DNA of 64,000 nucleotides from a virus, in the IMG/VR virus record IMGVR_UViG_3300009128_001633, positions 1-64,000 of that record, one strand, 5' to 3'. Below are positions 3,717 through 13,680 of this stretch, in pieces. How positions within the stretch are numbered: the first letter of the stretch is position 1; the number at the start of each line of letters is the position of its first letter. The translations under genes and the position numbers were made by a program. Below the pieces are notes generated by a model that was given only the letters and a program-made list of their open reading frames with translations, was not told where the DNA came from and searched no databases.

Positions 3717-4343
3717 ATGAAAAAGAAACCATTGTTAGAAATATTTGATAACCTAAAATATCCAGAATGCTTCAGTGGGTTCTATTTATTAAGAACTGGA
3801 TGGATAGAACTAGATTTAGTGGCAAGATTAAAATGCTATCAATGCGGAATTTACAAAAGAGCAATATTATGTCCACCATATCTATGGCAAACATATTCTC
3901 AATTTAAAACATTTAAATCAACAAGAAAATTCATAGATAGTTTTGATTTCGTGGCTATTTTCATATGGAAAAATGATGGAACTAAATCATGGAAAATTAA
4001 CAAATCTGAACTAAGCCACGTGACTTTTAAAAAGAAAATGGGTAGAAGTCTAAAGGGTACAGAAAGTGGACAAGCAAGAGAAATAACTATGCTTATGAAA
4101 AAGTATAGAAGGGAGATTAAGAAAAATGGATATGATAACTTTTGTTTCATCCCCGGACATTGTGACTTATGTGGGCGTAAGTGTCCTAATCGCGACAACC
4201 CTCCTTGTAAGAGGAAAGGAATGCCTAGTATGGAATCTGTTGGGATTGATGTATATAAACTACTTGAAAAGATAGAAGTAGAATACGAATATCCTGTAAT
4301 TAATTATATGACTAATGTTACAATGATGTTAGTAAAGAGGTAG
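3717..4343 (+). CDS. DUF2284-like metal-binding protein
   Basis: A 208-residue protein with the two Cys clusters typical of the DUF2284 predicted metal-binding family. The first is CYQCGIYKRAILCPPY near residues 40-55. The second is CDLCGRKCPNRDNPPC near 150-165, followed by MPSMESVGIDV. The ferredoxin-like spacing suggests Fe-S or Zn binding; the biochemical role of the family is not established. Such genes are usually chromosomal in anaerobes and archaea, so a phage copy is somewhat unusual. The gene sits 6 nt after a small ORF and belongs to the same operon. Confidence 0.75.
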   Translation: MKKKPLLEIFDNLKYPECFSGFYLLRTGWIELDLVARLKCYQCGIYKRAILCPPYLWQTYSQFKTFKSTRKFIDSFDFVAIFIWKNDGTKSWKINKSELSHVTFKKKMGRSLKGTESGQAREITMLMKKYRREIKKNGYDNFCFIPGHCDLCGRKCPNRDNPPCKRKGMPSMESVGIDVYKLLEKIEVEYEYPVINYMTNVTMMLVKR

Positions 4344-4424: not shown

Positions 4425-4871
4425 ATGCCAAACGGACACAGAAAAAGACCATTGAGTGAATTCGGAAAACATGATTATGCAGATCATGGAACATCAAGCT
4501 GTAAATATGGATGCGGATGTTGGGCGGGGTCAACCATGTCAGGTGGTCCAGTCGGAATAGACCCATTCGGACAATGTCATGAAAATGTACCCGACGAGAG
4601 CCGTGACACAGACTATGAAGATCTCGTAAACGGACGTATTGATAAACTTGAATCTGAAGTGTATAGACTTAAAGAATTTGAAGAGATAGTTATCAAAAGT
4701 AGAGAAAATTCAAAGGTTAATTTAGTTCAGGAAAACAGCGAAATTAGATCAAAAATAAATAGGTTGTCACATTTTATACATAATACATTTAAAGAAATTG
4801 ATACACTTAGTGACAAACATGATAAACTAAGGAAGGAAATTATGGAGCATGAAGAAGACAACAGTGGTTAA
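4425..4871 (+). CDS. Hypothetical protein, Cys/Gly-rich N-terminus and coiled coil
   Basis: A 148-residue protein. Residues 20-50 are rich in Cys, Gly and His (SSCKYGCGCWAGS), possibly metal-binding. From about residue 65 to the end it is a charged coiled coil with Leu/Ile heptads. The ribosome binding site is strong (AAGGAGGAAG). The gene overlaps the start of the DUF4326 gene by 23 nt. No family is recognised. Confidence 0.65.
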   Translation: MPNGHRKRPLSEFGKHDYADHGTSSCKYGCGCWAGSTMSGGPVGIDPFGQCHENVPDESRDTDYEDLVNGRIDKLESEVYRLKEFEEIVIKSRENSKVNLVQENSEIRSKINRLSHFIHNTFKEIDTLSDKHDKLRKEIMEHEEDNSG

Positions 4872-5151
4872 CTGTAAAAGAGAAGAATACGATATATTAA
4901 TAGATAGAAAAACACCATATGGTAATCCATTCGTAGTTGGAAAAGATGGAGATCGCAAAACAGTTATTAAAAAACACAAAGATTGGTTATCAGGTAAAAA
5001 ATTTAAGAAGTTCTTGCAAAAAAGAAGAAAATATGTCTTACAACGAATACCATTAATGCAAGGAGAACGCTTAGGATGATGGTGTGACCCATCGCCGTGT
5101 CACGGTGATACGTATGCTGAGTTAGCAGATGCATATAAGGAGAAGGAATAA
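4849..5151 (+). CDS. DUF4326 protein with in-frame UGA at a conserved Cys codon
   Basis: The N-terminal part (76 codons) matches DUF4326: VVNCKREEYDILI, then TPYGNPFVVGKDGDR, then a helix ending in HKDWL. Translation would stop at TGA 5077-5079 right after ERLG. The same frame continues with WCDPSPCHGDTYAELADAY and ends at TAA 5149-5151. DUF4326 proteins normally end with an LG-C-WC-x-P-x-x-CHGD motif, so the TGA sits exactly where the first Cys is expected. Either the UGA is read (Sec or read-through), giving 100 residues, or the gene is a recent nonsense mutant or contains a sequence error. TGA is an ordinary stop elsewhere in the window. The coordinates given cover the full read-through frame. 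Confidence 0.7.
5080..5108 (+). promoter_or_regulatory. SECIS-like hairpin downstream of the in-frame UGA
   Basis: A 7-bp stem (5092-5098 with 5102-5108, one G-U pair) closes a GUC triloop. Counting the U of UGA as 1, the loop bases are G23, U24 and C25. G23 and U24 are the loop positions required in the E. coli fdhF SECIS element. The stem partly coincides with codons for the conserved CHGD motif, so it may be chance. No selenocysteine tRNA is visible in the window. Confidence 0.25.
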
Positions 5152-6013: not shown

Positions 6014-7066
6014 ATGATAGACTTAATAGAGAATGAAACAAAAAACTTTAAAAATCTCAAAAGATTCAAAGAGTACGTTAAAGACCAAGATGTAAGAAAA
6101 CGTGAAAGATTAGTACAATTTTCTGATTGGGAAATGGGTAAAAATGGTTTAAGATTAAAAACAAAAAAAGGAAAATTCACAACATTTCCAATAAGAGATT
6201 CTGGTATGAAAACTTTGCTCCGAACTTTTCAAATGCCAGTTAACTTTTACTATAGAAAATCACCAACCGATATGCTAGTTAGAGACATAAACAGAATGAG
6301 AGATGAATATTCACCAGATAGTGAATTTATTGTTTTCTTACAAAAACCAGAAAACGGTGGTAGAAAAGAAGTTAGAGCAGTAGCCAAACCAAACACAAGA
6401 CATGTAACTGATCATATCACACTTCTTGATAGTACAGACCTTAATAAAAAATTATTTGAACGAGCATCTTATAGCGATCTAGGAGTAAGGATCACAACGT
6501 CAGACGAATCTAAAGCAATAAAAGTAACAAAGGGTGATATAATTAATATGGGCGTAGAACTAATGTATTCAGACGTAGGATTTTTTACAACTTCTGGCAA
6601 CCCATTTCTTAATAGATTAGTTTGTACAAATGGAATGGTTATGAAAGAAAAAAATCCATTATTAACAAATTTCACTATGTCATTCGGTCCAAGAATGACT
6701 GAAGAAAACTTTTTATCAACACTAAATCACAATATAGATACAGTTGAAGCAGATACAAAGATTTTAAAAAGAACATTTAAATCAATGAAAAGTAATCCTG
6801 TGATGGCTCTTCCAATGGGTCTTTCACAAATGAAAAAGATAAGATCTGCCATAGGTATAGAAAAATTTGATGCACATGAAAAATTATCAACTAAAATAAT
6901 GGAAGGTGAAACAGAAAAAAGAATGATAAATACTGATCTTGAACTATATTCAGCACTTGACGTTGTAACCAGAATGGCTAAGGGATATGATTATTTAAGT
7001 CGCAGAAGAATAGAAGGACTTGCAGGTGGATTAATATTAATGAGTGCAGAGAGTTTGCCAAGCTAA
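6014..7066 (+). CDS. DUF932-like phage/plasmid protein
   Basis: A 350-residue protein with the general layout of DUF932 proteins: an N-terminal region that handles a query peptide-like segment, then a central core with TSGNPFLNRLVCTNGMV (near residues 195-211), the family hallmark being an Arg-Leu-Val-Cys-x-Asn-Gly motif. These proteins are widespread in large phages and plasmids, where their biochemical function is not firmly known. It has a strong ribosome binding site (AAGGAGGG). The stop overlaps the start of the next gene. Confidence 0.6.
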   Translation: MIDLIENETKNFKNLKRFKEYVKDQDVRKRERLVQFSDWEMGKNGLRLKTKKGKFTTFPIRDSGMKTLLRTFQMPVNFYYRKSPTDMLVRDINRMRDEYSPDSEFIVFLQKPENGGRKEVRAVAKPNTRHVTDHITLLDSTDLNKKLFERASYSDLGVRITTSDESKAIKVTKGDIINMGVELMYSDVGFFTTSGNPFLNRLVCTNGMVMKEKNPLLTNFTMSFGPRMTEENFLSTLNHNIDTVEADTKILKRTFKSMKSNPVMALPMGLSQMKKIRSAIGIEKFDAHEKLSTKIMEGETEKRMINTDLELYSALDVVTRMAKGYDYLSRRRIEGLAGGLILMSAESLPS

Positions 7067-7434
7067 TGAATAAAATAATAGGAATAGTTGGATCTAGAAA
7101 AAGAAATAGTACGAAAGATTACAAAAAAGTTAAACGCAAATTTCTTTTTTTATATGAAGGTGGCGATTTCATTTGTTCAGGAAAATGTCCAAAAGGAGCT
7201 GACAAATTTGCTGTAATCTTAGCAAGCTTATTTGTACCTCCGGAAAATAGGTTGTGGTTTCCACCTAATTGGAACAAATATGGTAAATCAGCAGGATTTA
7301 TAAGAAACACAAAAATAGCAAGAGTTTCAGAATATCTCATAGCTTGTGTAACAAAAAATAGAAAAGGAGGCACTGAAGATACTATTGAAAAGTTTATTAA
7401 ATTTCATGGAAAGGAGAATTTGTACATACTGTGA
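7066..7434 (+). CDS. SLOG-fold DUF2493/YspA-like protein
   Basis: A 122-residue protein of the DprA/LOG-like SLOG superfamily. It begins with IGIVGSRKR, the phosphate-binding glycine turn. It then has SGKCPKGADKFA, a WFPPNWNKYGKSAGFIRN segment, and a conserved TKNRKGGTEDTI motif. SLOG proteins bind nucleotides or nucleotide derivatives; the role of phage copies is unknown. The start overlaps the stop of the DUF932-like gene (TAATG), so translation is probably coupled. Confidence 0.8.
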   Translation: MNKIIGIVGSRKRNSTKDYKKVKRKFLFLYEGGDFICSGKCPKGADKFAVILASLFVPPENRLWFPPNWNKYGKSAGFIRNTKIARVSEYLIACVTKNRKGGTEDTIEKFIKFHGKENLYIL

Positions 7435-9155: not shown

Positions 9156-11840
9156 ATGAAGTCAAAGGAGATGAATAAGATAATACATGAAAATACAGAC
9201 ATAATAATAACTAAAATAAGTAAAAGAAAAGGAGATGAATTTGCATTAGCTAAATCAAGCATTGGAAATTTATTTATATACGATGCCAAATACACTTTTA
9301 GAGAATTAAAAGAAACCAACATACCAATCCATGTCTATAATAGCATTCCAGATGGAAGAATAAAAATAATTTTCATCTGGAATGCTAAACCATATCTAGT
9401 TAACATAGAAGACATTATAACAAAACCCAGAATAAATAGAAAATTAAAGTTAGCAATATTTCCAGTTCAACTTTCCCGTCTTAAACTCCTCAAAAAACAA
9501 GAACAACCAAAAAATCAAACCAAATTTATACACACGCATGTCCATACAGATCATAGTTTAATTGATGGAATCAGTACATGCATTTCTTATGTAAATAAAG
9601 CAAAAAACTTAGGAATGCCAGCAATAGCAATAACTGATCATGGTAATATTTCTGCACATCTATATTTGCAGTTAGAAGCAGAAAAATTAGGAATAAAACC
9701 AATATTTGGCGTAGAGGCATATGTTGTTCAAGATGCAACAATACACGATAGTGATCACAGATCTAACAACCATATAGTTTTATTAGCTAAGAATAAAACT
9801 GGATATAAAAACATTTTGACACTACAAAAACTATCTTGGTCCCCAGAAAACTTCTATTACAGACCAAGAATAGGTTATAAAACTCTCAAAAAATATCATA
9901 AAGGTTTAATTGCTTTAACTGCATGTATTAAAGGTTTGATGGGCTTAGACATCTTAAATGGAGAGCTCAGCGTGGCATATAGGACAGCCAAATGGTTAAA
10001 AAAAGTTTTTGGTGATGACCTATACTTGGAAATACAATTACATAATATATTTGATAATCAGGGTAATGATCTCCAAAAAATATATAACAAAGAGTTAATA
10101 AAAATGTCTAGAAAATTAGACATAGAACTTGTATTAACAAATGATGTGCATTATGCAGATAAGGGTATGCACAAAGTACAAGAAAAAGTAATTAAAATGA
10201 AAAGTGATTCTGATCTCGCGGATGCGTATTGTAGATCAATATGGTTTAAGAGTTTAAAAGAGTTAACAGAAACAAGAAAAAATGAGTGTAGTTATATAAA
10301 AATTCCAACATTCAAGAAAGCTGTCTCAAATACACTTAAAATAGCAGATAAATGTAATTATAAAATACCAACAGGAGGCCTTAGAATACCATCCATAGAC
10401 ATAAGTGAATTTCCTGGACATAAATCGTGGATGACCGAAGAAGATTATTTAACACATAGAATAAAAAAAGGAATAAGAAAAAGAGTAAAAGAAAACAAGA
10501 AAAAATTAACATCAGAATATAGTGAACGTATAAAAATAGAAATGAATGCATTTATTAAAATGAAAGTTATATCGTACATATTAATATATGATGATTTAGT
10601 ACGTTTTTTAAAGAAAAAAGGATGCCTCTGCTCATTAAGAGGTTCTGCAAATGGAAGCATTGTTCTATGGTTAATAGGATTGTCAATAGTTGATCCTATA
10701 AAGTTTAATATTTTGTTTGAAAGATTCATTAGCCCTGCAAGAATAGAGGCTGAAATGGCAGACATAGATATTGACCTTGATATTTCACATGAATATAGAG
10801 ATGTAGCTATTAACTATTTAAAAGAAAAATATGGCGAAGATCATATATGTATAGTTGGTACATTTGGTAGAACACAACTAAAAGCTTCTGTTAAAAACAT
10901 GGCAAGAGTTGAGGCAATTAAAATCAAGAAGCGTATTGATAAAACAAGAACAAAAACTAAAATTAAAAAACTAGAGAAAAAACTAGAACAATTCTCATAT
11001 AAAGAAATAAATAAAGTTACAAAACTTATGCCATTGGAATTTGATAAACTAAAAGATTCATCTGTATCTGATTGGTATAAAAAAAATAAAAAGTGGTTAA
11101 AGAAATACATAAAACCGATATTGGGCAACGTGTATTCAGAATCATTACATCCTGCCGGAATAGTAATTTCGCCAGAACCATATCATGAGTGGCTTCCTGT
11201 GAGAACAAACAAGCTTTCACAGGCAAAAGGTGGGCATAGGGTATTCGCCACACAATGGGAAAACTCACACACAAGTGTAGAACATCTAAATGAACGTGGT
11301 GTGATGGTTATGGATATATTAGGTGTGAAAACCTTAACAATCGTCGATGAAACTCTCAAACTAATAAAGAAAAGACACGGTGAGAAATTGAAGCTTGAAG
11401 CAATACCACTTAATAACAGAAAGACTTACAAAACATTATCAAAAGGTGAAAACCTTGGTATATTTCAACTGAGTGAAGGATTTTTAAAACCAATATTAAG
11501 ACAAACAAAACCAGACAATATAGAGGATATAATATTCATGGTTGCCGCAGATCGCCCAGGACCTATGGCATCCGGTGCGTTCGACCATTATGCAAAAAGA
11601 AAACATGGTAAGGAAAAAGTTAAGGTCCCACACCCATCTATGAAGATAGTGTTAAAAGATACTCTTGGTGTACTAACATACAGTGAACATGTTATGAGAA
11701 CAGCAACCTTTTTCGCAGGAATGGATCCAATTGATTCTGAAAAAATGAGGAAAGTTGTTAAGTCAAAAAATCCTGCAGATTTTATAAAATTTAAAGAAAA
11801 GTTTATTTCAGGAGCAATAAAAAAATGGACAAAAAAATAA
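9156..11840 (+). CDS. dnaE: DNA polymerase III alpha subunit, N-terminal fragment
   Basis: This 894-residue fragment carries the first two thirds of a DnaE-type replicative polymerase. An unusual N-terminal extension of about 123 residues precedes the PHP domain (HTHVHTDHSLIDG at 126-138, AITDHGN). The palm follows with the catalytic pair in ADIDIDLD (about 534-541), and a third acidic residue lies in MDILGVKTLTI. The reading stops after FISGAIKKWTKK, where family members continue into the fingers. The missing continuation is found in frame-broken form from 12725 on. The stop overlaps the start of an inserted small gene at 11825. The fragments would have to assemble to form an active enzyme. 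Confidence 0.9.
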   Translation: MKSKEMNKIIHENTDIIITKISKRKGDEFALAKSSIGNLFIYDAKYTFRELKETNIPIHVYNSIPDGRIKIIFIWNAKPYLVNIEDIITKPRINRKLKLAIFPVQLSRLKLLKKQEQPKNQTKFIHTHVHTDHSLIDGISTCISYVNKAKNLGMPAIAITDHGNISAHLYLQLEAEKLGIKPIFGVEAYVVQDATIHDSDHRSNNHIVLLAKNKTGYKNILTLQKLSWSPENFYYRPRIGYKTLKKYHKGLIALTACIKGLMGLDILNGELSVAYRTAKWLKKVFGDDLYLEIQLHNIFDNQGNDLQKIYNKELIKMSRKLDIELVLTNDVHYADKGMHKVQEKVIKMKSDSDLADAYCRSIWFKSLKELTETRKNECSYIKIPTFKKAVSNTLKIADKCNYKIPTGGLRIPSIDISEFPGHKSWMTEEDYLTHRIKKGIRKRVKENKKKLTSEYSERIKIEMNAFIKMKVISYILIYDDLVRFLKKKGCLCSLRGSANGSIVLWLIGLSIVDPIKFNILFERFISPARIEAEMADIDIDLDISHEYRDVAINYLKEKYGEDHICIVGTFGRTQLKASVKNMARVEAIKIKKRIDKTRTKTKIKKLEKKLEQFSYKEINKVTKLMPLEFDKLKDSSVSDWYKKNKKWLKKYIKPILGNVYSESLHPAGIVISPEPYHEWLPVRTNKLSQAKGGHRVFATQWENSHTSVEHLNERGVMVMDILGVKTLTIVDETLKLIKKRHGEKLKLEAIPLNNRKTYKTLSKGENLGIFQLSEGFLKPILRQTKPDNIEDIIFMVAADRPGPMASGAFDHYAKRKHGKEKVKVPHPSMKIVLKDTLGVLTYSEHVMRTATFFAGMDPIDSEKMRKVVKSKNPADFIKFKEKFISGAIKKWTKK

Positions 11841-12724: not shown

Positions 12725-12823
12725 ATGGATCAAAATGGATATGGAACACCAGATGAAATAAGGAGGATTGCGGAAAGCGTATGGGAGGAAATGATGGGTT
12801 TCTCCAAATACGCTTTCCCGTAA
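12725..12823 (+). pseudogene. dnaE: DNA polymerase III alpha, middle fragment (32 codons)
   Basis: The ATG at 12725 has a good ribosome binding site (GAAGGAGAAT). The fragment reads NGYGTPDEIRRIAESVWEEM followed by MGFSKYAFP. This corresponds to the DnaE segment that follows the end of the 9156-11840 fragment (in E. coli, the region leading to GYGFNKSHS). It ends at TAA 12821-12823, exactly inside the highly conserved F-N-K-S-H motif region. It is too short to fold alone, so it is either a joined product with the next fragment (frameshift or bypass) or a remnant. Confidence 0.75.
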
Positions 12824-12831
12824 AAAAAATG
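12814..12831 (+). promoter_or_regulatory. Candidate recoding or stop-restart site in the polymerase gene
   Basis: TTTCCCG forms an X XXY YYZ slippery heptamer in the reading frame, directly before TAA 12821-12823. A run of eight A and then ATG 12829 follow. Removing the 11 nt from 12821 to 12831 would join CCG to AAA and restore the family motif (YAFP-KAHATSYA) in one frame. Frameshift, reinitiation or a recent 11-nt insertion are all possible. Confidence 0.45.
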
Positions 12832-13680
12832 AAAGCTCACGCCACATCTTACGCTATTCTAGCAAATGCAACACAATTCTTAAAAGTAAAGTATCCTATA
12901 GAATTTTTCTGTTCACATCTCCAACAAGCTGTTGATGAAAATTATAATCTAATCAAAAATGTTGCAAAAAGAAAATATGGTGTAAAATTTTATATGCCAG
13001 AGATAAATAAATCATCTGATAAGTTTACTATATATGACAATAAAATAGTATGGTCACTATCAAGTATGAAAGGAGTAGGCTTAAAAGCTGCAAAAGAAAT
13101 TATATCAAAGCAACCATTTACAAGCTTTCATGACTTCTTTGAAAGAATTAACAAAAGAATTGTCAATATAAAAGTTGTAAAAGTTCTAATAATAGCAAAT
13201 GTATTTAGGGAATTTGGAAAAAGAAACAGAATAGCAAAAATATATGGTAAACTTAGAAAAGACAAAGAATATCTAAAAATGACTAAAGAAGAATGGGAAT
13301 TAGAAGCAAGTAAGGTAATGACTTATTTCAAACAATCTGTAAGAGACTTATTTCCAACTAAAACAAAGTCTGCCATAACGTATGAAGAATTTTCAGAAGC
13401 AAAAATTGGGAAGAGGGTCATAGTAGCAGGAATAATAGAAAACTATCGTGAAATAAACAGTAAACGTGGTATGATGATTTTAATGAAAGTCTCTGACTCT
13501 GGAGAAAATTTTGCAATTGTTTGTTGGAACAATTTTTATAATAGACTATCTGAAAACGGAATAAAATTAGATAATGGATTAGCAGTAAGGGTTTCTGGTT
13601 ATAAAAACCTCTCTAACTTAGAAGAAGAACAAATAACACTTGGCAGAGAATCAGGTGCATATGTGAAAGTATTAACATAA
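12829..13680 (+). CDS. dnaE: DNA polymerase III alpha subunit, C-terminal fragment
   Basis: From ATG 12829 the protein (283 residues) starts with KAHATSYAILANATQF, the DnaE motif normally reading KSHSAAYA. It continues through the fingers (KYPIEFFCSHL), the helix-hairpin-helix region (SSMKGVGLKAAKEI) and an OB fold (KRVIVAGIIENYREI to IVCWNNFY). No ribosome binding site is seen close to ATG 12829. An upstream ATG in this frame at 12781 would add unrelated residues. A -1 slip at T TTC CCG (12814-12820) in the previous frame would fuse the two pieces. The gene ends the polymerase block; an 82-nt gap with a palindrome follows. Confidence 0.85.
   Translation: MKAHATSYAILANATQFLKVKYPIEFFCSHLQQAVDENYNLIKNVAKRKYGVKFYMPEINKSSDKFTIYDNKIVWSLSSMKGVGLKAAKEIISKQPFTSFHDFFERINKRIVNIKVVKVLIIANVFREFGKRNRIAKIYGKLRKDKEYLKMTKEEWELEASKVMTYFKQSVRDLFPTKTKSAITYEEFSEAKIGKRVIVAGIIENYREINSKRGMMILMKVSDSGENFAIVCWNNFYNRLSENGIKLDNGLAVRVSGYKNLSNLEEEQITLGRESGAYVKVLT

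Follow-up and report, generated by a model that had tools for sequence, protein, structure and literature searches.

The stretch of viral DNA that was analysed (hereafter the window) comprises positions 1 to 64,000 (64,000 nucleotides) of the IMG/VR virus record IMGVR_UViG_3300009128_001633. On its plus strand, positions 4849-5151 hold a gene of the DUF4326 family (Pfam PF14216), which begins with ATG at 4849, is preceded by a possible ribosome binding site (GGAG, 4844-4847) and is interrupted by a single in-frame TGA at 5077-5079, after which the frame stays open up to TAA at 5149-5151. A gene for DUF2284, a predicted metal-binding protein, lies shortly before it (3717-4343) and is also present in a related phage (L005), and a small protein matching phrog_289, which looks SLOG-like, is encoded about 2 kb away (7066-7434); a similar-looking ORF lies near a remnant of a DUF4326 gene described below (L050), and fusions of DUF4326 with Macro, SLOG and NADAR domains have been reported (PMC7824862).

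When the TGA is read as a residue, the gene encodes a protein of 100 residues (MKKTTVVNCK...GERLG-U-WCDPSPCHGDTYAELADAYKEKE), and a profile search matches it to PF14216 with 83.3 bits against a curated cut-off of 25 (E 2e-23), over profile positions 3-79 of 82 and with an alignment (residues 6-88) that runs across the TGA. The 23 codons behind it (5080-5148) hold the rest of the family motif (WCDPSPCHGD). In 52 aligned members the residue at the position of the TGA is an invariant cysteine (Cys77), together with G25, N26, P27, C79, C84 and H85, although the three UGA forms were entered with Cys in that alignment. The CxC motif is kept by all 80 closest viral relatives (many of which were found through a pattern that contains it) and by the DUF4326 genes that could be read from bacterial genomes. 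The idea that the truncated product of 76 residues is the functional protein and the extension a relic is very doubtful, since, although a start site and a 76-codon frame exist, such a product would lack four residues that are invariant in all 52 aligned members (C77, C79, C84 and H85) and would leave the conserved extension and its hairpin unexplained.

The hairpin behind the UGA codon

Directly behind the UGA, the segment 5091-5098 (ATCGCCGT) pairs with 5102-5109 (ACGGTGAT) around a GUC loop (5099-5101), forming a stem of 8 bp with a folding energy of -9.7 kcal/mol. The sequence-only reading that first drew attention to this locus described a stem of 7 bp, and correctly placed the G and the U of the loop at positions 23 and 24 counted from the U of UGA. 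The hairpin fits the bacterial SECIS model as stated in PMC13188914 (a loop of 3-9 nt, a stem of 4-16 bp, G in the first two loop positions, a spacing of 16-37 nt and a minimum free energy of at most -7.5), with a spacing of 19 nt. Position 17, on the other hand, is not U, which would be a difference from the fdhF element. No Rfam family was found above threshold in the window, and only weak minus-strand chance hits were found around the gene.

Part of this structure is forced by the protein, given that the T-G-T at positions 22-24 is the codon of the invariant Cys84 and that CCN...CAYGGN pairs by itself. Three controls were therefore performed to establish whether the hairpin is more than the motif requires. 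Synonymous recoding with the codon usage of the phage reaches the observed hairpin in 0.9% of cases; of 71 distinct Cys homologues only one (L218) has as good a hairpin; and of 436 TGAs of this phage that sit in a comparable reading frame, 4 have one as good, this one included. These figures alone are not decisive, because the window was chosen by a reading in which the hairpin had already been seen. Folding of a longer segment (52 nt) against dinucleotide shuffles was not remarkable (z -0.55), so the signal lies in the geometry and place of the hairpin and not in overall stability. The exception among the Cys homologues, L218 (gene at 1501-1758, with TGC at the site), has a very strong GUC-loop hairpin (-13.3 kcal/mol) at nearly the same place as in the window, which may be due to chance or may be a relic of a former Sec codon. 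A scan of the whole phage for other Sec candidates gave three further TGAs with a hairpin, none of them with an evident protein family motif, although these were not searched by homology.

Recurrence of UGA in other DUF4326 genes

The sequence-only reading proposed a phage selenoprotein or read-through gene, considered a nonsense mutation equally possible, and asked whether the UGA and the hairpin recur in related phages. They do recur, and its proposal of a selenoprotein is supported. Exact pattern scans for U-x-C-x-P-x-x-C-H over the IMG/VR viral contigs and, in a stricter form, over one genome per bacterial and archaeal species identified a full-length, otherwise intact DUF4326 gene with TGA at the same codon in L014 (IMGVR_UViG_3300036760_000361) and another in L078 and L112 (3300012363_000001 and 3300009088_000002), which are identical over 3571 bases and count once. 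The proteins of L014 and L078 are 42% and 30% identical to that of the window, and both genes have hairpins with a CGUGU loop at positions 20-24. The energy of the hairpin is -7.7 in L014, while in L078 it is -7.4 for the hairpin alone and -11.6 for positions 4-45. A truncated remnant with TGA at this codon is found in L050, a contig of a Clostridiales MAG; it has lost its upstream part and has no good G-loop hairpin. Of 154 genomes of the class of this MAG, 11 had a DUF4326 match and only the L050 remnant had TGA, and 399 genomes of its phylum gave no other match. Nearly all other pattern hits are chance or have no DUF4326 frame.

To estimate the base rate, the same kind of scan was made at neighbouring codons. 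With TGA at the Trp codon between the two cysteines it gave one DUF4326 gene (L252), which has no hairpin, and with TGA at the second Cys of the CxC motif it gave two, L287, without a hairpin, and L289 (IMGVR_UViG_3300031539_000005), with an 8-bp stem and a GAU loop (-10.3). TGA by itself is thus found at neighbouring codons too, and L252 and L287 look like plain nonsense mutations or errors. What separates the groups is the hairpin, which is present in 3 of 3 full-length genes with UGA at the first Cys (window included), in 1 of 2 at the second Cys and in 0 of 1 at Trp. Hairpins as good as those of L014, L078 and L289 are matched by 0.03%, 3.0% and 0.3% of synonymous recodings, respectively, and their ranks among the TGAs of their own contigs are 2/223, 32/575 and 2/637, the rank of L078 in its GC-rich contig being only moderate. 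Of the 71 Cys homologues, 3 reach the hairpin of L014 and 3 that of L078. When all six cases other than the window are taken together, including those without a hairpin, the combined p is 1.4e-4 (recoding) and 1.8e-3 (rank). It should be noted that the hairpin score and its limits were a simplified version of the published model, fixed before these sequences were ranked against their genomes but after their folds had been seen.

In a tree of 77 proteins the UGA forms are scattered among Cys forms (one origin in 0% of bootstrap trees), so independent origins are likely, although the tree has few columns and weak support. L252 is the sister of L218 in this tree. L002 is a Cys form, as is the DUF4326 gene of Brevundimonas phage vB_BpoS-Polewnik (L329, ON529863.1:9481-9717), which is intact but unannotated in the public record.

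The main alternative is a nonsense mutation or an assembly error in a decaying or dispensable gene, in which the hairpin would be a by-product of the conserved motif and chance codon choice. A change of one base is enough to turn TGT or TGC into TGA, two TGA-bearing homologues lack a hairpin, and the gene is dispensable, since the related phage L005, with similar gene order, has no DUF4326 gene in the corresponding stretch. However, the gene has no other lesion, the same codon is TGA in two further diverged lineages, the hairpin excess holds in sequences that played no part in the sequence-only reading, and none of 80 close viral relatives has an in-frame stop before the CHGD motif. There are no read data and the Sec competence of the host is unknown, but this explanation is considered unlikely.

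Decoding machinery and the proposed role of selenocysteine

None of the viral contigs holds tRNA-Sec over threshold or SelB, and the 95.9-kb phage has no tRNA gene at all; the tRNA-Sec-like hits in the sequences G003 and G004 are ordinary tRNA-Asn and tRNA-Thr. In contrast, the MAG with the L050 remnant has a tRNA-Sec over the Rfam threshold and a SelB over the NCBIfam cut-off. TGA ends many of the long genes of the phage, so the code is standard and general reassignment is excluded. Reading of the UGA at this site as cysteine or another ordinary amino acid, by a UGA-decoding tRNA-Cys or a Sec-tRNA carrying Cys (such tRNAs appear to exist), with the hairpin still acting as a recoding signal, would agree with the Cys found at position 77 in the other members, but it is highly improbable, given that the phage has no tRNA gene and that the hairpin is best explained by SelB.

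If Sec is inserted, the host must do it. The host is unknown; the DnaE-type polymerase of the phage suggests a bacterium, and the nearest terminase is that of Brevibacillus phage Emery, at 33.5% identity. The gene for DNA polymerase III alpha (DnaE) is split into two genes with small unrelated ORFs between them (9156-11840, 12725-12823 and 12781-13680), and in L005 it is split at the same place. In the window the C part meets TAA (12821-12823) directly behind TTTCCCG (12814-12820, a U_UUC_CCG slippery heptamer) and continues in the -1 frame, which makes it a candidate programmed frameshift, or else a small insertion next to a run of A.

Taken together, these observations suggest that the gene probably encodes a phage selenoprotein of the DUF4326 family, decoded by the Sec machinery of a host whose competence is inferred, and without evidence so far at the protein level. 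According to this proposal, during infection of a selenocysteine-decoding bacterium the host SelB-GTP-tRNA(Sec) complex binds the hairpin when the ribosome reaches UGA 5077 and inserts Sec at residue 77, the first residue of the CxC...CH motif of the family, so that the phage supplies only the gene and its cis signal; where Sec is not inserted, a 76-residue product without the motif would be made.

In an AlphaFold2 model (pLDDT 92.5), whose predicted fold matches viral DUF4326 models, residue 77 is the last of a strand (74-77), followed by a loop that leads to Cys84-His85 and a helix. DUF4326 has been placed in the rhodanese-phosphatase superfamily and proposed to act on terminal phosphates of ADP-ribose or its breakdown products (PMC9503650). 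By this classification the region would be the active site and Sec would be the catalytic or redox-active residue, a role that is inferred, since sequence and fold searches of the PDB gave no usable relative and only weak sequence matches point to DUF488-N3a (E 0.00096 for L289; 5 of 52 members). The inference is in line with known rhodanese-like selenoproteins, one of them with a CxU motif (PMC13188914). As in bacterial selenoproteins with a SECIS behind the UGA, such as fdhF, the UGA stands at an otherwise conserved Cys, but here the gene is phage-borne, belongs to a different protein family and has no Sec genes on the same contig.

The decoding mechanism is known, while DUF4326 as a selenoprotein family, and its phage setting, appear to be new. 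No paper that links DUF4326 with selenoproteins and no report of a phage selenoprotein was found, subscription papers and preprints being outside the search, and a 2026 review of the prokaryotic selenoproteome does not mention phage or virus, nor DUF4326 in the passages searched (PMC13188914). A broader reading, which is somewhat more likely than not, is that phages of several unrelated lineages have repeatedly turned a conserved Cys of DUF4326 into selenocysteine, at either position of the CxC motif, making a class of phage selenoproteins that exploit the Sec machinery of the host, perhaps for faster turnover of ADP-ribose-type signals in host-phage conflict.

If the proposal is true, it adds a selenoprotein family that lives mainly in phages, and it would show that phages use host selenocysteine decoding and would tie such phages to selenium-using hosts. 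Gene callers that stop at UGA truncate or miss such genes. The exchange of UGA for Cys also points at the functional residue of a widespread uncharacterised viral family, a homologue of which is found in about 2000 of 50,697 phage records.
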